Below, piece after piece: positions 23,038 to 37,079 of a stretch of DNA of 64,000 bases. Where the stretch lies: positions 298,240 through 362,239 of the IMG/VR virus record IMGVR_UViG_3300028840_002431; one strand, written 5' to 3'. Origin of the DNA: a virus. Within the stretch, counting starts at the first letter, position 1; each line of letters begins with the position of its first letter. The notes beneath the pieces were generated by a model. That model was not told the DNA's origin and did not search any database. It worked only from the letters and a program-made list of their open reading frames with translations. Made by a program: the position numbers and the translations under genes.

Positions 23038-23214
23038 GTCTTTTTACCTTCTGATGTGATCCCGGAAGTGATCCCGTTCAAAAAGGGTGGGCTTATAAGG
23101 ACATTTGGAACAAACGACGACCGCCAGCGCCCCCTGGTACACCACCCCCAGAAGTGTTATCTTTGGAAAGTAGAATTTCTCTTGAATTTCGCCCTTCCCA
23201 TCAGTAGTCCGAAT
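23038..23214. promoter_or_regulatory. Divergent intergenic region, likely promoters
   Basis: This 177-nt gap between the minus-strand giant virion gene and the plus-strand lipoprotein gene is the largest in the window. It must hold the lipoprotein promoter and could hold one for the minus strand. A direct repeat GTGATCCCG occurs at 23056-23064 and 23068-23076, 12 nt apart (about one helical turn), as for an operator. A TAGAAT at 23171 could be a -10 box, but no good -35 is seen. No terminator hairpin is evident. Confidence 0.35.
23056..23076. repeat. 9-bp direct repeat, operator-like
   Basis: GTGATCCCG is repeated exactly with a 12-bp period in the divergent intergenic region. Spacing near one DNA turn suits a dimeric or side-by-side regulator site. 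It lies close to the start of the minus-strand gene. A chance repeat cannot be excluded. Confidence 0.3.
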
Positions 23215-25539
23215 ATGGAAAGGTTTTTACTTCTAACCCTCATTCTGGCGGCGGCTTGTGGTTCTAACCCCGCCTCAACTGACGACCCCAACCCGGTCGA
23301 ATTACCACCCACTGTTATAAACAGTGATGCTGGAATTCCCGACGCAGAAGAGCCTCCCGCCCCTGATGGCGGCCCTCCCGTTGTGGATTCCGGCCCTCCA
23401 ATTCAGGACGGCGGTCAACCACCCGTTGAAGACGCTTCCGACGCGGCCACAGAGCCTATAGACGCCGGAAACCTCGATTCTGGAGCGGATGCCGGGGATT
23501 CCGGCATCCCGGACACCGGCTCTGACGCCAGCGACAGCGGAACTGACGGCGGCTCTCCGGAGTGTACGAGCGGTACGAAGAAATGCGTCGCTCTAACGGT
23601 CCACGAGTGTGTAGACGAAACCTGGACAGAGCAGAACACTTGCCCTTACATCTGCGACAACGGGACATGCAAAGGAGTCTGCGAACCCGGCGACACCCGT
23701 TGCGACGGCAAGGACTCCCAGGAATGCGGGGCCGACGGCAAGTGGGTGACGACAACCACTTGCCCCTACATATGTTCAGGAGACGGAGACTGTATGGGTA
23801 GTTGCGCCCCGAATGATAAGGACTGCGACGGCCTCGTTCCGCGAACATGCGGGGCCGACGGCGAATGGGACAATGGTTCGGCCTGTCCTTACGTTTGCTC
23901 TGGTGGTGATTGTACCGGGGTCTGCGTCCCTACCACTAACCGCTGCGACGGGAATAAATCCCAGACGTGTAACGCGGCCGGTCAGTGGACTACGAACCAA
24001 ACATGCCCCTACCTTTGCACCGGGGCCGGAAACTGTACCGGGGAGTGCTCCCCAACCTCCAAACGGTGTGATGATCTGACGCCACAGACGTGCGACGCCA
24101 ACGGCTTCTGGCAAAGCGGCTCTGACTGTCCTTACGTTTGCGACGGCGGTGACTGCACTGGCGTTTGTGTACCTGAGACCGATCGCTGCGACGGAAGAGA
24201 CTCGCAGACTTGTAACGCTTCTGGTCAATGGCAATCGACCCGAACCTGTCCTTACGTCTGCACCGGAGAAGGTGACTGTACCGGCGAGTGCTTCCCCGAC
24301 ACCAAGAGTTGCCAGGGAGACGTGCCTAGAACATGTAACGACCAAGGGGAGTGGGTAGAAGGTTCCGAATGCGAGTTCGTTTGCATGGGCGGTAACTGTA
24401 TGGGTGTCTGCGAACCCGGCGACACCATGTGCCAAGGCGAACAAATCCGGACTTGTACGGCGGTGGGGCAGTGGGGTGGCCCCGGCAACTGTGACGCCGT
24501 ACCAGGAGCCGATTCATATTGCGACGCCGGGTCCTGTACTTACGCTTGCGACCTCGATTACGACGACTGTGACGGCAACACCGATAACGGTTGTGAAGTC
24601 AATCTTAGCACCGACACCGACCATTGCGGAAGCTGTGACAATTACTGTTGCGGCGGGACCTGTACCGACGGGGCTTGTGGCGTCAACGTTACCGGCCTCT
24701 ACGGCAACTACGAGGTCGATGACGAGAACCTCTACTGGGTAGAGGGGCGGGACCTAAACCGACGCTCGCGGACGGGGAATGGTAGCGACGCCACGACGAT
24801 GAACACGCTGCCCGCTGGTAACATCGACGATATCGACTCGAACGGGACCTTGATCTTCTGGACCCAAGACGCCGACACGGACAGCGGCCTGTACGCCATG
24901 CCGGTCGAAGGCGGCGACATCGTGAAGTACAACAGTAGCGCCAAGGATGACGAGCTTGTTCTTGGACCTGACCGGGCTTTGTACCATGTCAGTGGCGGCA
25001 ATTGGGTTGGCTACGAGCTTATCGATGAACCCTACCAGAGTGCTGGCGGAGCGGGATTCGACCAACAACCCACCTATTATGTCTCGGACGGCACCTATAT
25101 GTACGTCGCATCCGGCTCTCTACAGCCGTTGCAGCGGTACCAATACACCTTCCCTCAGACGAAAGACGACTTCGTCACCTCAGAGGCATCCAACTACGAG
25201 TTCGGCCGGTTGGCCATCGACTCGACCAACCTCTACTACATCTTCTTCAACGCCATTACCCCGTCGGAGAACGGCGTCTGGAAGAAGCCCCTGAGCGGCG
25301 GAAGTCCTACTCAACTGGCGGCTGTGCCCAACGTCTGGTCGATCGCCACTGACGGCGAGTACGTCTACTACGCGGAACACGTCGGGTCGGGTAACATGAA
25401 CATCCAACGAGTCCCTGTAGGGGGCGGCGACTCGGAACTCCTGGTCAACCGTGCGTCGATCTTCGATATCAAACTGGCCGGTGGCTGCGTCTACTGGAAC
25501 GAGTACGGACAGGTCCACGCCATCTCTGGCGCACCTTAA
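23215..25539 (+). CDS. Myxobacterial-type Cys-repeat surface lipoprotein
   Basis: 774 aa, the only plus-strand gene. I start at ATG 23215 because it opens a lipoprotein signal peptide (MERFLLLTLILAAAC); a GTG at 23056 would bury it. After the lipidated Cys comes ~110 residues of Asp/Pro/Gly linker, then eight tandem ~40-residue six-Cys repeats ending CPYVC..G.CTGVC, a GCEVNL...HCGSCDNYCC motif, and a ~280-residue domain with beta-propeller-like repeats (DGEYVYYAEH, NLYYIFFN). Such architecture is known from myxobacterial envelope lipoproteins. In a phage it is probably an expressed cargo gene altering the host surface, for example blocking superinfection. No clear ribosome site precedes ATG. 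Confidence 0.85.
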   Translation: MERFLLLTLILAAACGSNPASTDDPNPVELPPTVINSDAGIPDAEEPPAPDGGPPVVDSGPPIQDGGQPPVEDASDAATEPIDAGNLDSGADAGDSGIPDTGSDASDSGTDGGSPECTSGTKKCVALTVHECVDETWTEQNTCPYICDNGTCKGVCEPGDTRCDGKDSQECGADGKWVTTTTCPYICSGDGDCMGSCAPNDKDCDGLVPRTCGADGEWDNGSACPYVCSGGDCTGVCVPTTNRCDGNKSQTCNAAGQWTTNQTCPYLCTGAGNCTGECSPTSKRCDDLTPQTCDANGFWQSGSDCPYVCDGGDCTGVCVPETDRCDGRDSQTCNASGQWQSTRTCPYVCTGEGDCTGECFPDTKSCQGDVPRTCNDQGEWVEGSECEFVCMGGNCMGVCEPGDTMCQGEQIRTCTAVGQWGGPGNCDAVPGADSYCDAGSCTYACDLDYDDCDGNTDNGCEVNLSTDTDHCGSCDNYCCGGTCTDGACGVNVTGLYGNYEVDDENLYWVEGRDLNRRSRTGNGSDATTMNTLPAGNIDDIDSNGTLIFWTQDADTDSGLYAMPVEGGDIVKYNSSAKDDELVLGPDRALYHVSGGNWVGYELIDEPYQSAGGAGFDQQPTYYVSDGTYMYVASGSLQPLQRYQYTFPQTKDDFVTSEASNYEFGRLAIDSTNLYYIFFNAITPSENGVWKKPLSGGSPTQLAAVPNVWSIATDGEYVYYAEHVGSGNMNIQRVPVGGGDSELLVNRASIFDIKLAGGCVYWNEYGQVHAISGAP
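23563..24546 (+). repeat. Eight tandem six-Cys repeats in lipoprotein
   Basis: Eight copies of 38-46 codons with spacing C-x6-C-x7-C-x10-C-x3-C-x4/5-C, for example CVPTTNRCDGNKSQTCNAAG. They alternate between two types: copies after a GVC ending have (K/R)DSQTC or NKSQTC, copies after GEC or GSC have (V/T)P(R/Q)TC. This implies growth by duplication of a two-repeat unit. The eighth copy is degenerate and lacks CPYVC. Confidence 0.9.
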
Positions 25540-25805
25540 CCAGACGGCCAGAGTAGTTTCAGAATCCAAACGGCCAGGGCGATCAGCACCGGGATTGCCC
25601 CGCCGATCAAACCCCACACGTGTGACTTGACCTTTAGAACACCGATCTCAACCTTCATATCGGTCATGTCCGACCGAATCTTCTCGATGTTCTGGCCTAG
25701 CCTCTTGATCTCCTTGAGGACGTGAATCGTGTATTCACTGACATCACGTTGCTGGCTGGGACTTCGGGGAGGAGCGAGGCTGTCATCGTCATAATGTCGT
25801 GCCAT
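25536..25805 (-). CDS. XhlA-like small membrane protein
   Basis: 89 aa. A hydrophilic N-terminal third is followed by a coiled coil (VLKEIKRLGQNIEKIRSDMTDMKVEIGVLK) and one C-terminal membrane helix (WGLIGGAIPVLIALAVWILKLLW). This is the layout of XhlA/hemolysin-type holin-associated proteins and of small phage tail-anchored proteins. Its TAA overlaps the lipoprotein's TAA on the other strand. A lysis role is plausible, but the same layout is seen in non-lytic proteins. Confidence 0.5.
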   Translation of the reverse strand: MARHYDDDSLAPPRSPSQQRDVSEYTIHVLKEIKRLGQNIEKIRSDMTDMKVEIGVLKVKSHVWGLIGGAIPVLIALAVWILKLLWPSG

Positions 25806-25989
25806 TTAGTCTTCTTTCTCGTTCGACAATTCTATTTGCAAGCTTTTCGATCTTGACTATTTCCCCACCACTCTCCTCTTCTTTCTTGTGGTACCCGTTT
25901 TTCTTTCGGCGCTCCAACAAGCGGACGATTGCGACACTGGCGATGACAGAGATACAAACGGAAGCCAAAAGTAAAAACGCTGTTTCCAT
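25789..25989 (-). CDS. Small N-terminally anchored membrane protein
   Basis: 66 aa: an N-terminal membrane helix (AFLLLASVCISVIASVAIVRLL) followed by a strongly charged tail (ERRKKNGYHKKEEESGGE...LANRIVERERR) that should be cytoplasmic. It overlaps the XhlA-like gene by 17 nt. The pair may work together at the inner membrane. No Rz-like periplasmic domain or lipobox is present, so it is not an obvious spanin. Confidence 0.5.
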   Translation of the reverse strand: METAFLLLASVCISVIASVAIVRLLERRKKNGYHKKEEESGGEIVKIEKLANRIVERERRLNGTTL

Positions 25990-26013: not shown

Positions 26014-27207
26014 TCATTTAACCAAATTATAAAACAGTTTTGCCCAGGAATTGGCAATTTCGCCCCAATTACAATGCTTTTTAATCCATGAGTAGGCGGC
26101 TCTGGACCGTTTAGCGGCTTCTTTTGGCCGGTCGTGTACGTCACAGATACAAGAGGCCATGCTATCAACCGATGTGAGCGGTCTGATGTGAGAATTATCG
26201 TATTCCGGCAAGACCGTGAAATCTGAGCAGTCGGCCAACCAGCCGCGTTCTTGACGCTCGCCAATGATCTCCTGACACGACGTGTGCCGTGGCATGACGA
26301 CCGGAACCTTACAAGCCATAGCCTCCGTGGTGCTCAAACCCCACCCCTCCCCCAAGGTGGTGGACACGACAACATCAGAGGCACAATAAATATTCCTCAG
26401 GAGATCTTTTGGGAAGCCGCTCGGTCCAAAATCCCTAGGGTACAGAACGTCTCCCCGCAATTCTTCGGGCACCTGACGGCTGATGAAATTGATAAGGTCT
26501 CCGTTCCCAGAGTGAACGTCGGTGTGTAAGTAGAGCTTCGCGTTTGAGATTCTTTCCTTGACCTTCAGCCAAACCATTACCGTCCTCGGCAGATCCTTTC
26601 TCGGTTGATTCTTGTTCACGTTCGTGATGATGAAATCCTTCGAAGAAACCGAAAAAAGGTCCCGCTTCAACCTCTTACGCTTGGCTTTCTCGACAGGCTT
26701 GAACGTCTTGGTGTCAACACCATGGTATAAAACCCGCAACTTTTCGTCAGAGTGTTTCCGGACCTCCCTCTTACCGTATTCGGTGTACGCGACAGCCCTG
26801 TCTGCCGTCTCCACAGCGTTCGTGACCCATAGCCGATCCAGCGGGGCGTCCACAGGGAAATACAAAGCGTATTTGAACTTCTTAGCCCCACGCACACGCC
26901 GGATGGACTCGTCCATGGATACAAGGTTGAAAGTATCCTGAAGGGCGAACAAAATATCATAGTCACCTTGCTCTAAAAGCTCGATGACCCTTCCACGGCC
27001 CAAGGGATCGCCGCCCGACGCAGCCGGGTACACTGGGATATCCCGGAACTTGTAATAAGGGCTGTTTTGTGTGTTGTAAGGGTCGCCGTGGTAATTGATC
27101 CCCACCACAGTAAATTCGAATCTGTCAACGAGCCGGGAAATCAACTCTTCGGCAACATTTCCGAATCCCGTCGGGCACAGGAAATCACTATACCAAAGGA
27201 CCTTCAT
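26014..27207 (-). CDS. GT4-type (GT-B) glycosyltransferase
   Basis: 397 aa. The N-terminal Rossmann-like half contains GFGNVAEELISRL and the typical VDTKTFKP at the domain junction. The C-terminal half has TNVNKNQPRKD and the retaining EX7E motif (GEGWGLSTTEAMACKVPVV, Glu287 and Glu295), which binds the nucleotide sugar. The family transfers sugars from NDP-donors to lipids, glycans or proteins. It immediately follows the epimerase gene (TGA-ATG adjacent), so that enzyme may supply or tailor its sugar. The acceptor is unknown. Confidence 0.9.
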   Translation of the reverse strand: MKVLWYSDFLCPTGFGNVAEELISRLVDRFEFTVVGINYHGDPYNTQNSPYYKFRDIPVYPAASGGDPLGRGRVIELLEQGDYDILFALQDTFNLVSMDESIRRVRGAKKFKYALYFPVDAPLDRLWVTNAVETADRAVAYTEYGKREVRKHSDEKLRVLYHGVDTKTFKPVEKAKRKRLKRDLFSVSSKDFIITNVNKNQPRKDLPRTVMVWLKVKERISNAKLYLHTDVHSGNGDLINFISRQVPEELRGDVLYPRDFGPSGFPKDLLRNIYCASDVVVSTTLGEGWGLSTTEAMACKVPVVMPRHTSCQEIIGERQERGWLADCSDFTVLPEYDNSHIRPLTSVDSMASCICDVHDRPKEAAKRSRAAYSWIKKHCNWGEIANSWAKLFYNLVK

Positions 27208-28212
27208 TCAAAACATTCTCTCGGTCCACGTCCTAGGCGTGTGTTGGTTACGGATCTCAACTTCTATGTTGTAGTCGAACTTACGGGTCCCGTGGCGCTC
27301 GATGTGTGTGACAATGGACTCCAAGCCTTCTCTCAGAGGCACCTTGGCCTTGTAGCCAAGCCGCCGTCGAGCCTTGTCAGCCGAACAATTCGCAAACCGG
27401 ACCTCCATCGGCCGGTCCGGGACATAGATTGGCTCAAGGTCTACCCCGATAATGTCAGCGAGGATTAGGGATAGCTCGTTTATAGTTATGAACGCATCGT
27501 CAGGACCAAGGTTGAACACTTCCCCGTCCAACCCCTCGTCAAACGCCAACCGCAACATAGGCTCAGCCACGTCACTAACAAACGAAAAACAACGCCGCTG
27601 TTCGCCGTCCCCGTAGATTATAGGTTGCCGTTTTTGCAGCATGAGGTTTGCCATGATGCTGGCAACGTTGCGAAACGGGTCATCCCACTTCTGTCGCGGA
27701 CCAATGATGTTGTGGGGTACAACGGTTACGTGTTCCATCCCATGTACGCCACAAAGGTTACGGAGCATTTGCTCTACAGAGACTTTACCGATCCCATAAG
27801 GATCTTGAGGCCGGGGTTCCATCTCCTCGACGAACGGCGTCTCGTTACTCCCGTACCGGGCCATGCTGGAACAATTCACAAAACGTCGGACCCCGTTCCG
27901 TACAGAAGCTGATATCAGCGACACAGACGCTTGGACGATATTCTGGGTGATGAACGAAGGGCTGAAAACGCTCAATCCTTCGTAGGCGGTGGCAGCACAA
28001 TGGTACACAACCTCCGCGTCTCGGGTTAGGCGTGTCATGGCTTCCAGGTCGGCGCAATCCTCTTGGTAGAACTCCACCTCTTCGGACACGTTCGCCAGTT
28101 CACCGCCCACCAGATTGTCGCATCCGATGACGCGATGATCTTCTTTGACCAGAAGATCAGCCAAGTGGCTTCCCAGAAACCCCGCAACGCCTGATACAAA
28201 TACTGTGCTCAT
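27208..28212 (-). CDS. NAD-dependent sugar epimerase/dehydratase
   Basis: 334 aa extended SDR enzyme. GVAGFLG (8-14) is the NAD(P)-binding Gly-rich motif, Ser115/Ser116 in NCSSMARYG precede the catalytic Tyr139-x3-Lys143 (DPYGIGK), and the C-terminus has VPHNIIGPRQ and FVSDVAEPML as in nucleotide-sugar epimerases. It likely acts on an NDP-hexose, such as a UDP-glucose-type substrate. Overlap by 4 nt with the upstream methyltransferase gene and adjacency to GT4 mark one operon for sugar tailoring. Confidence 0.92.
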   Translation of the reverse strand: MSTVFVSGVAGFLGSHLADLLVKEDHRVIGCDNLVGGELANVSEEVEFYQEDCADLEAMTRLTRDAEVVYHCAATAYEGLSVFSPSFITQNIVQASVSLISASVRNGVRRFVNCSSMARYGSNETPFVEEMEPRPQDPYGIGKVSVEQMLRNLCGVHGMEHVTVVPHNIIGPRQKWDDPFRNVASIMANLMLQKRQPIIYGDGEQRRCFSFVSDVAEPMLRLAFDEGLDGEVFNLGPDDAFITINELSLILADIIGVDLEPIYVPDRPMEVRFANCSADKARRRLGYKAKVPLREGLESIVTHIERHGTRKFDYNIEVEIRNQHTPRTWTERMF

Positions 28213-28670
28213 GCTTGTTTCCTAGCCATCAAAACGGTGTCTGCTACGCCCATCGTGCATTCCAAAATATCCAGGTCCTTGAACAACCACGTCATACCGT
28301 CCGGAAAGATGCGCCAACAATCCTTTGGGTGCCGGTGGTGCCCCCACGTATGCGGGGCTATTACACAGAGGTGGCCGCCCGGCTTCACGATCTTGATGAT
28401 CGCATCACGCCAGCGATGGGTGTCCTCCACGTGCTCAAGAACCTGACCGCTAACGACAACATCATACTGCTCATCCCCGAAGTCGTAGGTCCCTACGACA
28501 CGATCCACGTTCGGCCCGGCGACAATATCTAAGCCCGTATAGGCGCACCCGTCGAACAGTTCTCGGTACGTGCCGTTCAAGTCGTAACTCCCCACGTCGG
28601 CCACACTACACGGAGGTTTCACATACTGTTCTACAAAAGCCCGCATGTAACTCATTGAAGAAGGGTGCAT
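28209..28670 (-). CDS. Class I SAM-dependent methyltransferase
   Basis: 153 aa, from ATG 28670, which overlaps the upstream stop (TGATG); a TTG one codon earlier is less likely. Motif I is VADVGSYDLNG, acidic D of motif II is in TGLDIVAGP, and GQVLEHVEDTHRW with KPGGHLCV are the class I hallmarks (as in Methyltransf_11). The SAM-binding fold is clear; a sugar or peptide hydroxyl/amine acceptor is likely from the operon. The protein is shorter than typical full-length sugar methyltransferases. Confidence 0.85.
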   Translation of the reverse strand: MHPSSMSYMRAFVEQYVKPPCSVADVGSYDLNGTYRELFDGCAYTGLDIVAGPNVDRVVGTYDFGDEQYDVVVSGQVLEHVEDTHRWRDAIIKIVKPGGHLCVIAPHTWGHHRHPKDCWRIFPDGMTWLFKDLDILECTMGVADTVLMARKQA

Positions 28671-29890
28671 CAAATCCTCCGGAGGTAGCCGTGCGGGTTC
28701 CAGGTTATTAAGAATGACTCTCTCGACCTATCAGCTTCGAAAGCCGGATTCTCCAGCAAGAACGTGTGTACGGCTTCAAAAGGACCGGGAGATGGACCCA
28801 CCTCCAAACCGTGGTGGCAGATGCCATCCTCAACGATGAAGTAACCTCCCCGCCCTACCAGCTTCGAATAGAGCCGAAGAATACCCAGTGTGTTCTCGTA
28901 GCCGTGGGAACTATCCTCGATGACCATCACCGACGCTCCCTCCGGAACCAACCGCTGCACCTCTTGGAAAACGTTAAGGGCGTTGCCCTCTATCAGACGT
29001 ATCCTTGGGTGCGCCTTCACTTTCTCGGCCACCGCCGAGTGGTCTACGTCAATACCTAACACCTCCCCTTTCCCCATCGCGTCACACAGGTGAGCGAGAG
29101 CCAACAAGGCTCCGCCACAGGCGTTGCCTATCTCGATTATGAGGTCCGGTTTCGTTTCATAGAGGAGTTCTTGATACACCCAAAAATCGACAGGACTCTG
29201 ATACGCCCGGACCCCAAAATAACTGGTGTTCGTCATGATTTTGCGTTGCATCGCCTCAAGAACTTCCCGCAACGGCGTGTCCAAGGACATCTCCATGGGC
29301 CTCAAAACCCCAGACACGTAGAAATACTTCCACGTGTCCCAGGACACGAGATTCAATAGCTCCGCTTTATTGTTTACCAAGAATTGGTAATCGAGGACCT
29401 CCGTCTTCGGGAAGCATTTCTGTGCCCCTCTCTCGATCACACCGCAACCGAGATCGACATCGACAACACGCATTGACAAGTCGGGCCGGTACATCCTGTT
29501 CCAAGCCCAAGCCTTCCACACGTCCCCGGTCCACAGCACCTGGACCGGAGGGACCCGTTGCGCGTCCTCTGACGGAGGTAGACAGTCGTGGAGAACGACC
29601 GCGCCTCCTTCGTTCAAACACGCGAGAGAGTTATCGATATCGCGTCTTACCTGATCGGCTACATGATAACCGTCTATGAAAATCAGGTCCCAACGCTTGT
29701 CTTTTCCAGGCCCCGCGAAGAAGTCGTCAGATGACATTGCGTACGTCGCATCGTGGGCGGGGTCTACCGACTCTTTGTGTTCTACCAGAACACCATTGAA
29801 ATTATCCTTCAACCCGACCCCTATCTCCAGATAGGTCTTATAAGAGCGGGCTGTGGCTAAAGTATTTAGGACTTGAGTGCGCGTTATCAT
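28670..29890 (-). CDS. Methyltransferase-CmcI fusion protein
   Basis: 406 aa from ATG 29890 (ATGA overlap with the upstream gene; a longer start is rejected). The first ~190 residues form a Methyltransf_24-type domain (YLEIGVG, WDLIFIDGYH, GGAVVLHDC). From ~230 the sequence matches the CmcI/rhamnosyl O-methyltransferase-like family (SPVDFWVYQELLYE, DLIIEIGNACGG, VLGIDVDHSAV, VIEDSSHGYENTL, GPFEAVHTFL, WNPHGYLRRI). Two SAM-type domains in one chain suggest sequential methylation of one sugar substrate, which is inference. CmcI domains are typical of secondary-metabolite and glycan clusters. Confidence 0.85.
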   Translation of the reverse strand: MITRTQVLNTLATARSYKTYLEIGVGLKDNFNGVLVEHKESVDPAHDATYAMSSDDFFAGPGKDKRWDLIFIDGYHVADQVRRDIDNSLACLNEGGAVVLHDCLPPSEDAQRVPPVQVLWTGDVWKAWAWNRMYRPDLSMRVVDVDLGCGVIERGAQKCFPKTEVLDYQFLVNNKAELLNLVSWDTWKYFYVSGVLRPMEMSLDTPLREVLEAMQRKIMTNTSYFGVRAYQSPVDFWVYQELLYETKPDLIIEIGNACGGALLALAHLCDAMGKGEVLGIDVDHSAVAEKVKAHPRIRLIEGNALNVFQEVQRLVPEGASVMVIEDSSHGYENTLGILRLYSKLVGRGGYFIVEDGICHHGLEVGPSPGPFEAVHTFLLENPAFEADRSRESFLITWNPHGYLRRI

Positions 29891-30732
29891 GGGAACATCG
29901 ACGGAATAGCTACGTAACCACCAACCGGTTTCTTGCATTTAGGACAACGCGCCCTCTTAGAGACTATAGTGTTGAACTCCCCGCATGTCTCACAGGAGTA
30001 GTTCCCTATAACATCCCACGTCAATCGAAAATGAGTGGGCAACGGCAACAACTCGAACACTTCTTGTCGAGAGAACATCCCCGCTAAGTATATTTCCGGC
30101 CCTATACGATGCGGTACAACATGCGTCCAATTCGGGTGTGAGAAAAGACGGGCACTGTTCACCCAGTAAAAAGATCCGCTAAACATCCATACATTCTCAG
30201 GGACCGGTAGCCCAACCGAAGACATAGAACCAAGCATTTTCTCTGACGGTTTCCCCCAAAAAGAGCCGCACGCGGCATACTTCGTTAAAATAGATTCGAT
30301 CTTACCCACGTCGTGCAAACACTCGTGGTACATCCTGTTTCGCAATTGCCGCAAAGCTATCATGTGGTGTTCGAAGCTCTCGCAAGGGTACGACTCGATC
30401 TCTTCACGGCGTTGGGGGTGCGTCACACCTTTATCATGAGCGTAAAATATAGCCTCGTCGGGATTCGAGGACTTGAGCATCGACAGGATGTCTATGAACC
30501 CAGCCGCTTCGTGTTGGCCAGGGTGGTTTGGTAGCTCTATGTATTCCACGTCCCTAACCCCGAACTCTGCCTTTACGGCGTCCGCAGACTCCAAACCCTC
30601 TCCGGTTCGTACAACCATGAGCCGACGGTTGTTGAAGGCGTCCATATACCGGCGTAACCATCTAAGGTTATCCCGCCAGACCTCCGCGCCAGACTCTAAC
30701 GGAGCGCAATTGTACACAAGGTTACGCAGCAT
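29887..30732 (-). CDS. Glycosyltransferase-like protein with C-terminal zinc ribbon
   Basis: 281 aa. The N-terminal 230 residues contain IFYAHDKGVTHP and FSGSFYWVNSARLF, motifs I associate with uncharacterised glycosyltransferase-like proteins of surface-polysaccharide clusters. A DxD motif is not clear. The C-terminus ends in a zinc ribbon: CETCGEFNTIVSKRARCPKC (two CxxC pairs). It overlaps the FkbM fusion gene by 11 nt. The transferase call rests on weak motifs and context. Confidence 0.5.
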   Translation of the reverse strand: MLRNLVYNCAPLESGAEVWRDNLRWLRRYMDAFNNRRLMVVRTGEGLESADAVKAEFGVRDVEYIELPNHPGQHEAAGFIDILSMLKSSNPDEAIFYAHDKGVTHPQRREEIESYPCESFEHHMIALRQLRNRMYHECLHDVGKIESILTKYAACGSFWGKPSEKMLGSMSSVGLPVPENVWMFSGSFYWVNSARLFSHPNWTHVVPHRIGPEIYLAGMFSRQEVFELLPLPTHFRLTWDVIGNYSCETCGEFNTIVSKRARCPKCKKPVGGYVAIPSMFP

Positions 30733-32068
30733 CCTCGTCCTCGTAGTACACCTTGTTCTTTTCTTGCGGATCTACGATGGTATCGCCCACAGGGCTGTGT
30801 AACGTGCCTGTGTGATACTTTAGCCCTATATGAGGCAGCCAGAGCTTCACCCCTTCTTCACACAGGCCCTCGTACGGAACGATCTCAACTTCGGCTCCGT
30901 TGGCCTTGAGTTCCGTAATGTTCCTAACGAGGGTCCTATTGCGCGACCCAAGCATCGAGCCTAAGTCGTTCGTGAAACCATGTTTTTTAATGGCCGACCT
31001 CATAGCCGCGATAGGTTCTCTGATCATGACAACACCTGTTATATGGGAGTATCCGGCTCGACGTAGGCCGCCCACCCATCCGACAATATTGCCGTGTTGG
31101 ACCATGACAAACGGCTCGCCTTTGGACACTAGGATTTCTTCTTCTCTCTGTGGTTGCTCGTCGCCATGAAACCCAATGCAACCGCTTCTGAGCAATATAG
31201 AGGCCATCAGCCTATTCCCGCTGGCGACCGGACCGCACACCAGATACGCCGCGTGGATCAAACCATGATCACGGAACTCGATAGGTTCTAGCCAGTCATA
31301 GCCAAACGGGTGCCACCACATCACCTCACCAGCGAGATGAGGATAGTGTCTTGGTTTTATGGCAGTCTTCGACAAGATCGACGGGCCGTCCGTAATCCGT
31401 TCACAGAAAAAGCTGCCCAAATCGGCCGCGCCGACGATATTGACATAGTGGGTAGACATCAGCTTCTGCATGATGGGCCAGAAGCGTTTGATGTCGTGAT
31501 ACTCGCCCGCCATGAACCGGATTCTCTTGAGCGTCTTCTCAGACGCAGACCCCAGAAAACTACACTCCGCCCCCTCACTATCTGTCTTTAAATAATCTAG
31601 CTCCTCTCCCTCGTTCACTATGTCGTTCAACGCCTCTTCCAGAGTTTTGCACGCCACGGTGTCCGCCAGTTCTTTGTGGTTTCCCCCACTGGCTACCCCG
31701 GCTGGCGCGATGAAAGAGCCGCCTTCGTACCCAGGACCGCCATCCGGTAAGCCTAGGTACACATGTAAGGGGCCTTGACCCCCTCGCGGAACCTCTCCAA
31801 AATCATCCTGGTACAAATGTGCCGCTGTCACAGCCTCTGAGCGGATCTGTACCTGTTTGAGACCTTGCGTTTTGGACCGCGCCTTTTGCGCGTATCTCTC
31901 TACTGGTTCATAAGACACGATACGTGCTTCTGGAAAGCATTTCGCCATCTCGATGGTGATATCACCGACGTTCGCACCCACCTCTAAAATGGTCCTGATA
32001 GGCGGCCCTTTCTGTGCGTCTACGAACCGTCGGATCGTGTAATATTTGTAACAGGCATTGCCTTCCAT
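30722..32068 (-). CDS. FkbM methyltransferase fused to sulfotransferase-like domain
   Basis: 448 aa from ATG 32068 (TGATG overlap with the radical SAM stop). Residues ~25-180 are FkbM-type: TILEVGANVGDITIEM, VSYEPVER, LDYLKTDSEGAE. From ~270 a P-loop-like GPVASGNRLMASILLRSG resembles the PAPS-binding 5' motif of sulfotransferases, and VMIREPIAAMRSAIKKHG resembles their 3'-phosphate-binding R..P...S segment. The first half probably methylates a sugar hydroxyl; the second may transfer sulfate. The second assignment is tentative, and a P-loop kinase is an alternative. Confidence 0.7.
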   Translation of the reverse strand: MEGNACYKYYTIRRFVDAQKGPPIRTILEVGANVGDITIEMAKCFPEARIVSYEPVERYAQKARSKTQGLKQVQIRSEAVTAAHLYQDDFGEVPRGGQGPLHVYLGLPDGGPGYEGGSFIAPAGVASGGNHKELADTVACKTLEEALNDIVNEGEELDYLKTDSEGAECSFLGSASEKTLKRIRFMAGEYHDIKRFWPIMQKLMSTHYVNIVGAADLGSFFCERITDGPSILSKTAIKPRHYPHLAGEVMWWHPFGYDWLEPIEFRDHGLIHAAYLVCGPVASGNRLMASILLRSGCIGFHGDEQPQREEEILVSKGEPFVMVQHGNIVGWVGGLRRAGYSHITGVVMIREPIAAMRSAIKKHGFTNDLGSMLGSRNRTLVRNITELKANGAEVEIVPYEGLCEEGVKLWLPHIGLKYHTGTLHSPVGDTIVDPQEKNKVYYEDEDAA

Positions 32069-32811
32069 CACTTACCCCACTTAAATCTGTCTTCTACGTC
32101 CCAACGAATATGATCTTCTACCAACTGTTGGGGAGAAAGAGTCTTGATGTTACCCACCATGTGCTCAAACTTATAATCCCCCCATGTGTAGGTGACACGA
32201 CCATCCGTCGCCACACAGATGCTCTTACCGCCTCCGTAGACCGGGTCCCACTTATACAAGGGGCGCGATGCTTGGTACGTTATGTTAGGGGCCGTTATCT
32301 CAAAACCGCGCCAGTCGTCCGAAAAAGATACGACATGGATGTTGTCAAATTCAGCGTGCCGATCGAGCAGGTTCAAAAGGTTAGCTTTAGCGGTTGGGTA
32401 GTGGTCCGTTCGAGTTCGACGGGCGTATTCTTCTTCCCCTGTCTCGAACATGCTAAACCATACCCGACGTAAGCCGATGTTTTTAAGTTCGGTCAACCGG
32501 GCGTCGTTGAGCAAGACTCCGTTGGTACAAAGCCAGACTCTGGTGTTGGGCAACGCGCACACACGTTTTAAATAGGCGTCTAGCCCTTTGAACAACAACG
32601 GTTCCCCGGCGACGTGTGGGTAGAACCAGAAGGTACAGTCGGGGTTCGCGTGTAACAATTGCACCACCGCGTCCATGGTCTCCTGGTCCACAAACGGGGG
32701 CCGGTCAACTTTTTCCTCCATCCCGCCCACGCACATGGAACACCGGTTCTGACAGTGAGTGGTAACTTCACTGTAAAGCAACGCTACTCTTGCATCGCAG
32801 GTTTCGGTCAC
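32068..32811 (-). CDS. Radical SAM enzyme
   Basis: 247 aa from GTG 32811 with AGGCGG just upstream. The CX3CX2C motif is at Cys20, Cys24 and Cys27 (THCQNRCSMC), and HVAGEPLLF corresponds to the GGE-like SAM-binding loop. Only one later Cys is seen (SICVATDG), so a full SPASM cluster domain is unlikely. It would cleave SAM through a [4Fe-4S] cluster to drive a radical reaction; its substrate is unknown. It is the first gene of the glycan island, so an epimerisation, dehydration or methylation of a sugar or lipid is likely. Confidence 0.88.
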   Translation of the reverse strand: MTETCDARVALLYSEVTTHCQNRCSMCVGGMEEKVDRPPFVDQETMDAVVQLLHANPDCTFWFYPHVAGEPLLFKGLDAYLKRVCALPNTRVWLCTNGVLLNDARLTELKNIGLRRVWFSMFETGEEEYARRTRTDHYPTAKANLLNLLDRHAEFDNIHVVSFSDDWRGFEITAPNITYQASRPLYKWDPVYGGGKSICVATDGRVTYTWGDYKFEHMVGNIKTLSPQQLVEDHIRWDVEDRFKWGK

Positions 32812-32876: not shown

Positions 32877-33305
32877 CTACGAGTAGTTCGCACCCAGGAG
32901 CGTCAAATAAATATCGGTGCCGTCCGAAAAATATTCGATGAGATCAATGGCGTTGATCGAAGCGGTGATAACATGAGGTGATCCACCGGGCCATTTCACC
33001 GAACCGGGGCCTGAGTAAGCCAGTGTGCCGGGCGTGGTCGGTGCTTGCGTGACCTTGATAATACCCCGTTGGGCCGTCCGTAGACCACCAACGTTGGTGA
33101 AAGAAAGAGTCTCCGCACCGCTGTTGGAGAGCACCAGTTCGATGTCCGTGGCGTCCCGCATGTCGTAGGTGAAAGTGCTTCCCGACACTGTGAGAGTCGC
33201 CATAACACGCTGAAGAATGGCAACCGCCGCGTTAGGGGCCGCCCCACGCGGAACTTCACCAGAAGCAAGTTGCGCTGCCGTCGCTACCGAAAATCGCCTA
33301 GCCAT
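32877..33305 (-). CDS. Small virion/tail-fibre-associated protein
   Basis: 142 aa, overlapping the fibre gene by 8 nt. It ends with a strand pair typical of fibre and capsid decoration proteins (INAIDLIEYFSDGTDIYLTLLG), and has regular Ser/Thr-rich beta strands (LVLSNSGAETLSFTNVGG). No signal peptide. Position directly after the 890-aa fibre suggests a tip or a chaperone-like trimeric partner. Downstream of it lies 65 nt without a gene or clear terminator. Confidence 0.6.
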   Translation of the reverse strand: MARRFSVATAAQLASGEVPRGAAPNAAVAILQRVMATLTVSGSTFTYDMRDATDIELVLSNSGAETLSFTNVGGLRTAQRGIIKVTQAPTTPGTLAYSGPGSVKWPGGSPHVITASINAIDLIEYFSDGTDIYLTLLGANYS

Positions 33306-35970
33306 GTTCGCTTACCTCCATCTGGCAACGCCACTCAATCGTTTTACTTGCCTCGCCAGTGACCTGAACTTGAATATCTTGGCTACTGATATTGAACGTC
33401 ACATCCCAGGCTGCCTGATCCTCGTAGCTGATCACGAAGTTCTCGTCCTTGCTCGTGACAACACTGCCGCTACTCCGCTCGAACAGGGCCTCGACCACAT
33501 ACTTGGCGGAGTCCCCGACGGTCCCCACACCAGCACTCTGACGCGCAAATACCGTAACCTTCATGGAGATTGCCTTGGAGTCGGCAAGCGTCGAGTAGGT
33601 AACGATCGTGTTAGCGCCAGCACCAGTTGTTTGGAGCGTGGCGTCGCCAAGAGTGTCGCCGTTTCCTCCAACATTCTGCCACGCGGTGCCATTGTGGAGC
33701 CGAACATGGCCGACACCAGCCGAGTGGCTGGCGTTCGTCGTGATGATATCGCCACTAACACCGGAAGAAGGATCAGCGTCCTGTGGTTGTATATGAAGTG
33801 CTGAGCGTACCGGAGAACCGCCCGTGTCTCCGTGGGCTTCAACACCGTAGCCGCCAGCACCGCCCGTGCCTTTGACACCTGTCCCGCCAGCACCGGAACC
33901 GTCGCCAGCACCGCCTTGTCCTTTGACGCCGATACCGCCGTTCTGGTTACTGGCAGCCGCGCCGTCACCAGCATTACCGACTACGCCAGTGCCACCATCA
34001 CCGCTGTCATTATCAGCACCTGTGCCTTCAACTCCATCGCCACCCTTATTTGTACCAAACGTTGACCCGCCGCCACCTATGAACCAACCGCCAAGACCGC
34101 CGTTAGGACCACCTGTCCCACCAACACCAATAGCGCTCGAAGAAGAGGTAGCGACATTACCAAGGCCCATTACGCCGAAACCGAATTGATCTGTGCCTTC
34201 GGTTTCTCCAAGAACTCCTACGGAGTAGTTGGGAGAACCACCGGCATCTTCTGACACTCCGTGGATAGCGCCTACAGATCCCGCAAGAACGAGAGCGGGC
34301 GCAACACCAGAACCGGCACTAGGTGTCTTACCAACGACGCCAAGGCCGTTTGTGCCACCCCCCGTCCCGGTCACACCCGCACCACTTACTCCGGTACCCG
34401 TCGCGGCTGCACCTGTTCCAACAACGCCGGTACCACCGTCATTGTTGCCCGTACCAGAGGCGTTGGAGCCGATACCTTCGACGCCGGTACCGCCATCGTT
34501 ATCACCGGTAGGAGTCCCGCCAGTACCCTTAACTCCTATGCCAGCACCGTTGCCACCGTAGCCATGGACACCCGGACCGGCGGAGCTGCCGCCAGTCCCT
34601 CGAACACCTGCGTGTGTCCCGGCACCAGCGCCGGTAATACCTATGTCGCCCGACGAAATTGCTGTCACAGCAACGTTGTTAGTAGACGTTGCGTAGACGC
34701 CATAGTGACCCGTACTAGCCCCATGGACTCCGATTCCGGTTGTGCCGGTGCCCTTAACACCAGTACCGCCTCCGCCGCCTACGCCCTCGACGCCGGTACC
34801 GTTGCCGGAAGCACCGCCTTCGCCATACACACCTTGAGAGGCCGGGGTGGGGACGGGTGTTAGAAAGTCTCCACCACCAATGACACCAATGCCGTTAGTA
34901 CTGCCACCTCTGCCAGAAACGCCGGGTCCAGTGCCCGCACCGGAGCCTCGAACGCCTCCCGCTCCGGAGGCAGTACCCTCACCGTGAACACCGAAGCTCG
35001 ACGCCGAAAAAGTGAACCCCCGGACGCCATACGTCAGCGACGAAGTCCCATCAACACCATAGTGGTTAGTGGATTCTCCTCTAACACCCTGTGCCGATGA
35101 GCCTACTCCCTTAATCGCGATACCTGATCCGGTGCCAATACCTTCAACACCAATGCCGTGAGGAGCACCGCCCGTGCCTTTGACACCCGTTCCGGTAGAT
35201 GTGCCGCCCGTACCCTCAACACCGACCCCGGAACCAGCGCCCGTACCTTTGACACCAATGCCGTTAGAAGCACCGCCCGTGCCTTTGACACCAATACCGG
35301 TGCCAGCGCCTTGGCCTTCAACACCAATGCCGCCAGATGCCCCACCTAAACCATAAACACCCTGTCCGCCAGAGATCACTGGGACCGGTTGTTGGTCGCC
35401 AACGAACATACCACCGACACCGTTAGCACCGCCTCCGATACCGCGTACTCCCTGTAAACTACTGCTTGCCCCAGCGGTCCCCACAATACCGGTCCCGGTC
35501 TCAGAATGCCCCTGCATCCCGGTTCCGGAGTTAGACTCTCCACGGACGCCTACCGATGTGGTGGAAACACCCCAAACACCGAAACTATCGGTGGCCGTGC
35601 CTTTGACACCCTTACCGGTAGTACCCCCGGCGACCCCTAAAACACCAATGCCGCCGACATCGCCGCCCGTGCCTTTGATCCCCTCCGAACTACCACCACT
35701 ACCGCCCGTGCCCTCAACGGCTATTTCACCCACGCTGGGTGTGAAGGTCTGTTTCCGCGTCCAGGTGTTAGGAACGTTTAACTGCACACCGCCGCCGCCA
35801 GCGTCCTGCCACTCGTAAGTTGTGGCGCTGGTCGCGGTCGGAACCTGACCCACTGTGGGGGGAGCGGCTGCGGCGCTAGATACCGGATCTCCGGTAGTAG
35901 CTAACTCCAAGGCTCCGAACTGACCGGGTGCCGGTTTGATCTTGCTTGCTGAGTTATAGCGATCGACCAT
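33298..35970 (-). CDS. Gly-rich repeat tail fibre, 890 aa
   Basis: ATG at 35970 after GGGAG. An N-terminal ~80 residues (KPAPGQFGALELATTG...WQDAGGGGVQLNVPNTW) is followed by ~600 residues of Gly-rich hexapeptide-like repeats (GVKGTGGASNGIGVKGTGAG) and a conserved C-terminal domain (ADSKAISMKVTVFAR...TIEWRCQM). Such repeats form elongated trimeric rods in phage fibres. It is probably a host-recognition fibre. It and the 904-aa protein share the repeat type but not their ends. The gene lies 43 nt downstream of the SpeD gene. Confidence 0.8.
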   Translation of the reverse strand: MVDRYNSASKIKPAPGQFGALELATTGDPVSSAAAAPPTVGQVPTATSATTYEWQDAGGGGVQLNVPNTWTRKQTFTPSVGEIAVEGTGGSGGSSEGIKGTGGDVGGIGVLGVAGGTTGKGVKGTATDSFGVWGVSTTSVGVRGESNSGTGMQGHSETGTGIVGTAGASSSLQGVRGIGGGANGVGGMFVGDQQPVPVISGGQGVYGLGGASGGIGVEGQGAGTGIGVKGTGGASNGIGVKGTGAGSGVGVEGTGGTSTGTGVKGTGGAPHGIGVEGIGTGSGIAIKGVGSSAQGVRGESTNHYGVDGTSSLTYGVRGFTFSASSFGVHGEGTASGAGGVRGSGAGTGPGVSGRGGSTNGIGVIGGGDFLTPVPTPASQGVYGEGGASGNGTGVEGVGGGGGTGVKGTGTTGIGVHGASTGHYGVYATSTNNVAVTAISSGDIGITGAGAGTHAGVRGTGGSSAGPGVHGYGGNGAGIGVKGTGGTPTGDNDGGTGVEGIGSNASGTGNNDGGTGVVGTGAAATGTGVSGAGVTGTGGGTNGLGVVGKTPSAGSGVAPALVLAGSVGAIHGVSEDAGGSPNYSVGVLGETEGTDQFGFGVMGLGNVATSSSSAIGVGGTGGPNGGLGGWFIGGGGSTFGTNKGGDGVEGTGADNDSGDGGTGVVGNAGDGAAASNQNGGIGVKGQGGAGDGSGAGGTGVKGTGGAGGYGVEAHGDTGGSPVRSALHIQPQDADPSSGVSGDIITTNASHSAGVGHVRLHNGTAWQNVGGNGDTLGDATLQTTGAGANTIVTYSTLADSKAISMKVTVFARQSAGVGTVGDSAKYVVEALFERSSGSVVTSKDENFVISYEDQAAWDVTFNISSQDIQVQVTGEASKTIEWRCQMEVSEHG
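33840..35715 (-). repeat. Gly-rich coding repeats of fibre
   Basis: Repeating codons for G(V/I)(K/E)GTG(G/A) units of mostly 6-15 residues fill this stretch. The repeat sequence is imperfect, with interruptions that add variable residues. Slippage or recombination could change its length. Confidence 0.75.
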
Positions 35971-36013: not shown

Positions 36014-36442
36014 CTACTTAAGACGCGGCCGGAACCGGCACGGGGCGTCCGAGAGAGACCTCCTAACATGGTCCTGTAGTTGCATCGCCATTTGGGCCTT
36101 CAAAAGGCCACGATCAACGCGAATCATCTCGTACCCGGTCGCCTGGAGTCCCACCAAAATAACCTCATGGGCCGCGTCTGGCTCACCCTGGCCGCAAGTA
36201 TAAAAGTCTACCGTGGCGTACCCGTGCTCTGGCCATGTGTGGACGGAGAGGTGCGACTCCTCAATGACCACGACGCCGGTCACTCCCTGAGGCTCGAAAG
36301 GGCGGAATATGGAATCTACAATTCGGGTGTTAGCCGCGTAAGCCGCCCGCATGAGGAGCGTTTGTATCTCTGACACATCGTCGAGTATAGATTGATTGCA
36401 CCCCCAGTATTCAACCAAGAGATGTCTACCCCGTGTGTCCAA
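36014..36442 (-). CDS. speD: S-adenosylmethionine decarboxylase proenzyme, canonical
   Basis: 142 aa from a TTG with GGAG 6 nt upstream. It carries the classic bacterial SpeD core: GRHLLVEYWGC at the N-terminus and VTGVVVIEESHLSVHTWPEHGYATVDFYTCG. Ser63 forms the pyruvoyl group after cleavage of the Glu62-Ser63 bond; His68 and Cys83 have their expected positions. The product makes decarboxylated AdoMet, the aminopropyl donor for spermidine. It sits between fibre genes, away from the other SpeD homologue. No spermidine synthase lies in the window, so the host would need to provide one. Confidence 0.96.
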   Translation of the reverse strand: MDTRGRHLLVEYWGCNQSILDDVSEIQTLLMRAAYAANTRIVDSIFRPFEPQGVTGVVVIEESHLSVHTWPEHGYATVDFYTCGQGEPDAAHEVILVGLQATGYEMIRVDRGLLKAQMAMQLQDHVRRSLSDAPCRFRPRLK

Positions 36443-36461: not shown

Positions 36462-37079
36462 TCAGTAGATCATAGCCCACGAACCCAAGTAGATACGACT
36501 ACTCGCCAGATTGGTTAGTCCGATCGTAAAAGAAGTTCCTTGGTCAGGAACAGGAACGTTGAGAACCGCTCCATTGCTGGCAAAGTTAGAAGTGGCCCCA
36601 TTGAAACTGACGAGACACGCCAGATTGGACCCCGATTCTTCGGAGTACACCCTCCGGAGACGTTCGGTCTTATCGTCAGAATCTAAGAACTCGTACTCCT
36701 CCCAGATCAAAACGCATTGAGCCACGGGCGCTCCCAGAGGGAATGTGGTCGAAACAAAAATCCCACCACCTGGGAGTATGCTGTGGTTAACGAACCCGGA
36801 ACTCGCCAATAGGCCCTGACTGCTCGACATATCCGCTGTCAGAACATCCAGACACGGATCGGCCAGGATGTCCGTGAAACCAGCGTAAAAAGACAACAAA
36901 CCCGCGTACTTCTGAGTCAGAAGGTCTGCAAGATCGGCTGGCTGATCATAGATCGCCACACCGTCCGGAACACGGATAAGAGTCGCCCCGGTTGATTCCG
37001 TGTCACCGGTCTCCGACGTGACCACGTCGATGACATCGCCGTTGGTCGTGAAAGGGTCTATTAGATAGTGAATGGTCAT
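36462..37079 (-). CDS. Probable virion protein, 205 aa
   Basis: Mostly beta strands and turns: MTIHYLIDPFTTNG, SGFVNHSILPGGGIFVSTTFPLG, FNGATSNFASNGAVLNVP. It has no signal peptide, and its Ser/Thr/Asn-rich composition matches the surrounding fibre and baseplate proteins. I recognise no family. It starts 5 nt after the coiled-coil gene's stop. Confidence 0.6.
   Translation of the reverse strand: MTIHYLIDPFTTNGDVIDVVTSETGDTESTGATLIRVPDGVAIYDQPADLADLLTQKYAGLLSFYAGFTDILADPCLDVLTADMSSSQGLLASSGFVNHSILPGGGIFVSTTFPLGAPVAQCVLIWEEYEFLDSDDKTERLRRVYSEESGSNLACLVSFNGATSNFASNGAVLNVPVPDQGTSFTIGLTNLASSRIYLGSWAMIY

Follow-up and report, generated by a model that had tools for sequence, protein, structure and literature searches.

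A putative fibre-plus-glycan enzyme cassette at a variable site between tail genes of a jumbo phage

The window, a stretch of 64,000 nucleotides from positions 298240-362239 of a 416,539-bp virus record (G000), contains seven closely packed genes which appear to be the enzyme part of a fibre-plus-glycan cassette. They occupy a variable site flanked by conserved tail genes. Based on sequence comparison, we consider it probable that this swappable cassette serves to decorate the fibre of the phage itself with a glycan that is methylated and possibly sulfated. The record encodes a DNA polymerase, a DnaB-like helicase and a DNA helicase as well as a baseplate wedge protein (phrog_6, 1.7e-22), and is therefore regarded as a contractile-tailed jumbo phage, in agreement with the sequence-only reading, which had placed the genes in a phage.

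Results

The gene cluster

The features of the site, in window numbering and all on the minus strand, are:

36462-37079, minus: conserved 205-aa protein; upstream border of the variable site, present in all relatives in which the site was inspected
36014-36442, minus: AdoMet decarboxylase (PF02675, 7.5e-36); upstream border of the variable site
33298..35970, minus: Gly-rich fibre, 890 aa, with GVxGTGG-type repeats; heads the fibre-plus-enzyme block; proposed acceptor
32877..33305, minus: small fibre-associated protein, 142 aa; 8-bp overlap with the fibre gene
32068..32811, minus: radical SAM enzyme, 247 aa (PF04055, 9.2e-13); CxxxCxxC at residue 20
30722..32071, minus: fusion of an FkbM methyltransferase and a sulfotransferase-like P-loop domain (FkbM-ST), 449 aa (PF05050, 6.2e-11; TIGR01444 above cut-off)
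29887..30732, minus: Zn-ribbon protein, 281 aa, probable GT-A-type glycosyltransferase (weak GT-A fold matches)
28670..29938, minus: two-domain enzyme, 422 aa; N-terminal half Methyltransf_24 (PF13578, 1.9e-18), C-terminal half of the CmcI/rhamnosyl O-methyltransferase type (RMNT_CmcI, PF04989, 2.4e-40)
28209..28673, minus: small SAM methyltransferase, 154 aa, TTG start (PF13489, 1.5e-7, and PF08241, 1.7e-7, both above cut-off)
27208..28212, minus: extended SDR of the nucleotide-sugar epimerase/dehydratase type, 334 aa (PF01370, 2.3e-43; phrog_540, 5.2e-54)
26014..27207, minus: GT4 glycosyltransferase, 397 aa (PF13692, 2.7e-10; phrog_2170, 4.1e-49); EX7E motif
25789-25989 and 25536-25805, minus: two small proteins with hydrophobic segments (hydropathy peaks 2.7 and 2.3); downstream border of the variable site

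All seven open reading frames named in the sequence-only reading were found at 26014-32811 on the minus strand, separated by gaps of 0, -4, -4, -52, -11 and -4 bp, and most of the families were supported when assigned with Pfam and NCBIfam and their cut-offs. A distance of 65 bp separates the cluster from the two fibre genes upstream of it (32877-33305 and 33298-35970), which point in the same direction. Signature motifs are intact across the cluster: CxxxCxxC, GxxGxxG with YxxxK, EX7E, two CxxC, and GPxxSGNR with REPxxxxRS. The GC content of the cassette genes is 0.51-0.55, and both GC content and codon usage resemble those of the rest of the phage. A recent import of the cassette from a host was considered and dropped, as GC content and codon usage are phage-like and the closest copies were found in phages. 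Hydropathy analysis gave no clear membrane segment in any cassette protein, and family searches together with hydropathy identified no flippase, polymerase, or initiating or membrane-bound glycosyltransferase among the seven.

Individual enzymes

The earlier names stand for the radical SAM enzyme, the FkbM domain, the methyltransferase-CmcI fusion, the small methyltransferase, the SDR and the GT4 enzyme, whereas the sulfotransferase half and the Zn-ribbon glycosyltransferase are weaker assignments than had been claimed. The C-terminal half of FkbM-ST (30722-32071) conserves GPxxSGNR and REPxxxxRS, which are P-loop/RxP-type motifs, and has no Pfam match. Its best fold match, the tyrosylprotein sulfotransferase 3ap3, is weak (E 4.5e-3, model pLDDT 57), and judging from this model 'sulfotransferase-like' is the most that can be claimed. 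For the Zn-ribbon protein (29887-30732) no Pfam or NCBIfam family scored above cut-off. For its low-confidence AlphaFold model (pLDDT 65) the highest-ranking fold matches were to GT-A enzymes and to nucleotidyltransferases (E 1.8e-4 to 1e-3, TM about 0.3-0.4), the first being a weak match to the GT-A fold (E 1.8e-4, TM 0.38), and the protein may be a GT-A-type glycosyltransferase.

The two-domain enzyme matches NF045824 below its cut-off (9.8e-31) and CmcI in the PDB (8.5e-8). PF04055 is the sole Pfam match of the radical SAM protein (32068-32811), a SPASM domain being absent, and the nearest solved structure is BtrN (3.4e-5); for the SDR it is UDP-glucose 4-epimerase (3e-48). The GT4 enzyme scores above cut-off with PF13692, PF00534 and PF13439, and its EX7E motif reads EGWGLSTTE at residue 287. 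With 27.8 bits it is also just above the cut-off of 26 of the Pfam model GT4-conflict, although the general GT4 models score higher. Its homologues include a protein 62.6% identical in L084, a stretch of a 20-kb contig from an otherwise different phage, and one 40% identical in Tetrasphaera phage TJE1. In TJE1 the GT4 relative is located near the terminase genes, and in Synechococcus phage S-CBS4 one adjoins the portal gene; both have a methyltransferase gene nearby. TJE1 was dropped as a second case of co-transfer because the epimerase beside its GT4 has no detectable relation to the window SDR. In Synechococcus phage S-EIV1 an AdoMet decarboxylase adjoins a GT4 related to that of the window.

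Distribution of the enzymes

When viral contigs were first scanned for close relatives, neither FkbM-ST nor the Zn-ribbon protein gave a match. In the phages collection there was likewise no match for these two proteins, the radical SAM enzyme or the small fibre-associated protein (32877-33305), and the two-domain methyltransferase had distant partial matches only. The genomes were read in stretches, and relatives were reached via a replication-region gene and baseplate proteins, one baseplate protein leading to 44 loci. In family searches of 22 records, several of which are fragments, Epimerase and Methyltransf_24 were found in G000 and G001 only and FkbM in G000 only, and the Zn-ribbon family occupied three places only, namely the window cassette and both G001 cassettes. 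One further contig, L085, was discarded as independent evidence, its proteins being 100% identical to those of the window and the virus the same. On an Omnitrophota MAG contig (L073:42-2426), a 794-aa protein starts with a Zn-ribbon-GT-type domain lacking the ribbon and continues with glycosyltransferase-like parts; several methyltransferase- and glycosyltransferase-like genes follow it, and the region is possibly a phage or a glycan island.

The sequence-only reading had suggested a new modification system in which methylation, possible sulfation and a radical step were unusually combined. A new seven-part system was not supported. All seven genes together occurred in no other record found, and close relatives differ in their sets, so that we regard the region as a cassette site rather than one fixed pathway; nor is the combination unique to this phage, as the largely unrelated set of G001 also has methylation, radical SAM and sulfotransferase-like genes.

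The variable site in relatives

The nearest relative, G001 (398 kb), is syntenic with the window phage, and many flanking genes are 75-90% identical. The small proteins of the downstream border are 53% and 84% identical in G001 and form the same border. When the site was inspected in 17 relatives including G001, the flanking tail genes and their order were kept on both sides, while the content of the gap between them varied and its length ranged from about 2.4 to about 21 kb. In 16 of the 17, all except G001, no recognisable sugar enzymes were present at the site, which instead held small fibres, a lipoprotein, and AdoMet decarboxylase or homing endonuclease-like genes. A stretch from G010 (L063) was left out because it covered the wrong side of the anchor.

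At the same site in G001, a fibre of the same family as the window fibre (41% identical) heads a largely different enzyme set, with RmlD, SDR, RmlC-like, Sulfotransfer_4, GSCFA, radical SAM with SPASM and family 2 glycosyltransferase domains and a weak methyltransferase match. A second sulfotransferase-like protein, which has no Pfam match, was assigned there by reading of its P-loop, and a homologue of the Zn-ribbon protein (36%) carries its zinc ribbon at the opposite end.

The AdoMet decarboxylase gene of the window (36014-36442) lies within the tail gene block and is also found in G001, G003, G004 and G020; it was dropped as a cassette member since it also occurs in relatives without sugar genes. 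On the other side of the cluster, 23056-25539 on the plus strand encodes a Cys-rich repeat protein of 827 aa that has a lipobox-like LAAAC; this is the sole long plus-strand gene amid the tail genes. Opposite-strand homologues are found in G001 (47%) and in G002 and G020 (about 38-40% to the window protein). This type of protein recalls Myxococcota lipoproteins, and might, we presume, hint at the host. In G002 the same variable site (L055:1438-5000) has repeated DNA reading 'FQLRGRRVPPSG' around the lipoprotein gene.

A block shared with an otherwise different phage

The baseplate protein of L084 belongs to another family (phrog_219, 1.3e-27). The gene order in L084 is a 1178-aa tail fibre, a small fibre protein, FkbM-ST, a methyltransferase of 401 aa and GT4, after which further tail genes come. 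The last 122 aa of the window fibre are 68% identical to the end of the L084 tail fibre, and the small fibre protein, in the same place, is 56-57% identical. FkbM-ST is about 49-50% identical over the matched part, with a start that is 77% identical; its frame in L084 is broken near residue 32-51, which is either a sequencing error or real. Other window proteins had no match in L084 except one further fibre (30%). The similarity of the two phages is thus higher within the shared block than outside it, which fits an exchange of fibre tip and enzymes between lineages. Since the fibre tip, small fibre protein, FkbM-ST and GT4 stand in the same order in L084, the unit in common is fibre plus enzymes. 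The L084 fibre is collagen-like (PF01391, 1.7e-46) with 101 Gly-X-Y triplets, 75% of which have Thr or Ser at Y, whereas the window fibre has GVxGTGG-type repeats instead.

A second fibre locus

In G001, a second fibre locus contains fibres, a polysaccharide pyruvyl transferase, a homologue of the Zn-ribbon glycosyltransferase (30%), a Methyltransf_24 enzyme and an SDR 70% identical to the window SDR. As this SDR is at the second locus in G001 and at the first in the window phage, it has evidently changed locus. The syntenic fibre locus of G000 (108.5-113.1 kb) has fibres and none of the enzymes of the second G001 locus; the short collagen-like fibre at the second locus of G000 has no enzymes adjacent, which counts against the decoration of fibres by linked enzymes.

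Two isolated genes of related kinds lie elsewhere in G000, beyond the limits of the window and not next to fibres: a paralogue of the sulfotransferase-like half (42%) at L075:8710-9279 and a second FkbM gene at L083:8005-8625. Also outside the window, at L075:2807-6030 (82.8-86.0 kb of G000), a short fibre-like gene is followed by an unknown gene and then by genes whose products match beta-ketoacyl synthase (PF00109, 3.6e-30), acyl carrier protein (PF00550) and phosphopantetheinyl transferase (PF01648); this group may be an acyl cassette linked to a fibre.

Discussion

At the level of sequence, fibre-linked enzyme cassettes are a real feature here: the cluster is compact and includes a fibre, content turns over at a fixed site, enzymes recur at a second fibre locus and a block is held in common with L084. 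The link between fibres and enzymes is known from two independent fibre contexts only, the G000/G001 group and L084. The enzymes likely decorate the phage's own fibres, because relatives swap sets at fibre genes and L084 shares the tip together with two enzymes. The sequence-only reading had left it at remodelling of a surface glycan or decoration of fibres; the occurrence of fibres and enzymes together at two loci of G001 and in L084 favours the second, and modification of the host surface stays the main rival.

If fibres are decorated, the enzymes would probably be co-expressed with the fibre, and a short glycan would be built and attached to Ser/Thr-containing repeats of the newly made fibre (33298-35970), the presumed acceptor. 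The SDR may make the activated sugar, a sugar nucleotide, and the GT4 enzyme and the Zn-ribbon GT-A-like protein could carry out sugar transfer. O-methylation would be the task of the FkbM, CmcI-type and small methyltransferases, the P-loop half of FkbM-ST may sulfate, and the radical SAM enzyme might oxidise or epimerise a ring carbon. A joint swap of fibre tip and enzymes would alter the surface coat of the particle and hence, as a possible benefit, host binding or shielding. The lack of clear membrane segments is compatible with a cytoplasmic protein substrate without proving one; the argument is weak because host sugars linked to lipids are likewise accessible to enzymes of the cytoplasm.

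Alternatively, the enzymes could alter a host surface polysaccharide (O-antigen or capsule) and thus hide the receptor from competing phages or released progeny, in which case linkage to the fibre would reflect co-selection of receptor binding and receptor masking. Glycosyltransferases in the host recognition clusters of pelagimyophages have been read in this way (PMC7029224), and the RmlC/RmlD-type and pyruvyl transferase genes of G001 are typical of cell-surface polysaccharides. However, a flippase, polymerase or membrane-bound glycosyltransferase was found in neither cassette at the site, in the window or in G001, and it is the fibre tip and the small fibre protein to which the enzymes are linked, a linkage preserved although the tail genes of the two phages differ; we regard modification of the host surface as unlikely, though as the strongest of the alternatives.

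The strong turnover of content, the homing endonuclease-like genes of relatives and the 16 of 17 inspected relatives without sugar genes at the site, G001 being the exception, would also agree with a recombination hotspot that gathers passenger sugar genes by chance, with no fixed role tied to the fibre. The intact reading frames and catalytic motifs argue against such a hotspot, as does the fact that sugar-type enzymes recur next to fibres each time, in L084 as well as at both fibre loci, and we find it rather improbable. It seems highly improbable that the genes serve the synthesis of a small molecule or the modification of phage DNA and stand beside the fibre by position alone. In favour of this, glucosyltransferases that act on DNA are familiar from phages, the GT4 enzyme narrowly passes the GT4-conflict model, and the nearest solved relative of the radical SAM enzyme, BtrN, is a dehydrogenase of an antibiotic pathway. 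Against this, the general GT4 models outscore GT4-conflict, no base-modification gene was seen near the cassette, the cassette is without scaffold-making genes, and the fibre linkage and exchange would be left unexplained.

Decoration of the fibre thus remains our preferred reading. A bolder extension of it, which we put forward tentatively and with more doubt than confidence, is that exchangeable cassettes of fibre tip and enzymes move between loci and between unrelated phages and add methylated and sulfated glycans, and that the acyl set could even acylate a fibre.

Literature searches for FkbM, sulfotransferase and tail fibre, and for phage-encoded virion glycosyltransferases, gave no match among the papers covered. 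Fibre regions with sugar-enzyme islands are already known from pelagimyophage host recognition clusters, which contain glycosyltransferases and, in some genomes, radical SAM cassettes (PMC7029224). In these clusters of pelagimyophages and cyanomyophages, as here, a large variable island with fibres, glycosyltransferases and in some cases radical SAM genes lies amid conserved structural genes (PMC7029224); in both the window and G001 a variable fibre-containing island lies between conserved structural genes with sugar genes inside. They belong to another phage group and are located between VrlC and gp14, apparently a different site (PMC7029224). Here, by comparison, separate lineages have in common a defined unit of fibre tip, small fibre protein, FkbM-ST and GT4, and enzymes are exchanged between two fibre loci within one pair of genomes. 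Enzymes encoded and transferred with a virion protein, one mark of a virion glycosylation locus, were found in the L084 block and the G001 cassettes.

BclA of the Bacillus cereus group has GPT-rich repeats with methylated rhamnose. In the exosporium it forms a collagen-like filament with oligosaccharide side chains on the collagen-like region, according to work cited in PMC9614988. The L084 fibre has the same kind of Thr-rich triplets, but BclA is a bacterial spore protein and the window fibre has GVxGTGG-type repeats, not Gly-X-Y collagen. Among viruses, the jumbo phage XacN1 likewise has its own glycosyltransferases, and at least two virion glycoproteins were detected by proteomics (PMC5852040); in the available part of that report, however, the glycosyltransferases are two only and a fibre-linked tailoring cluster is not described. 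Giant viruses also encode the enzymes that glycosylate their fibrils and a collagen-like protein (PMC10117803, PMC9614988). In Mimivirus and the Megavirinae, virus-encoded sugar-pathway clusters with methyltransferases decorate surface fibrils, and L230 acts on a collagen-like protein (PMC10117803, PMC9614988), but these are viruses of eukaryotes, likened here by description.

Sugar-enzyme islands near phage fibre genes have so far been read as tools altering the host surface (PMC7029224). That two enzymes have stayed with a fibre tip and a small fibre protein in two phages whose tail genes differ points instead to the fibre as the substrate, and narrows the question to a small testable set of one fibre, one small protein, FkbM-ST and GT4. 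If the fibre is indeed decorated, its specificity and shielding would depend on chemistry besides protein sequence, which would bear on the prediction of host range from fibre sequences.
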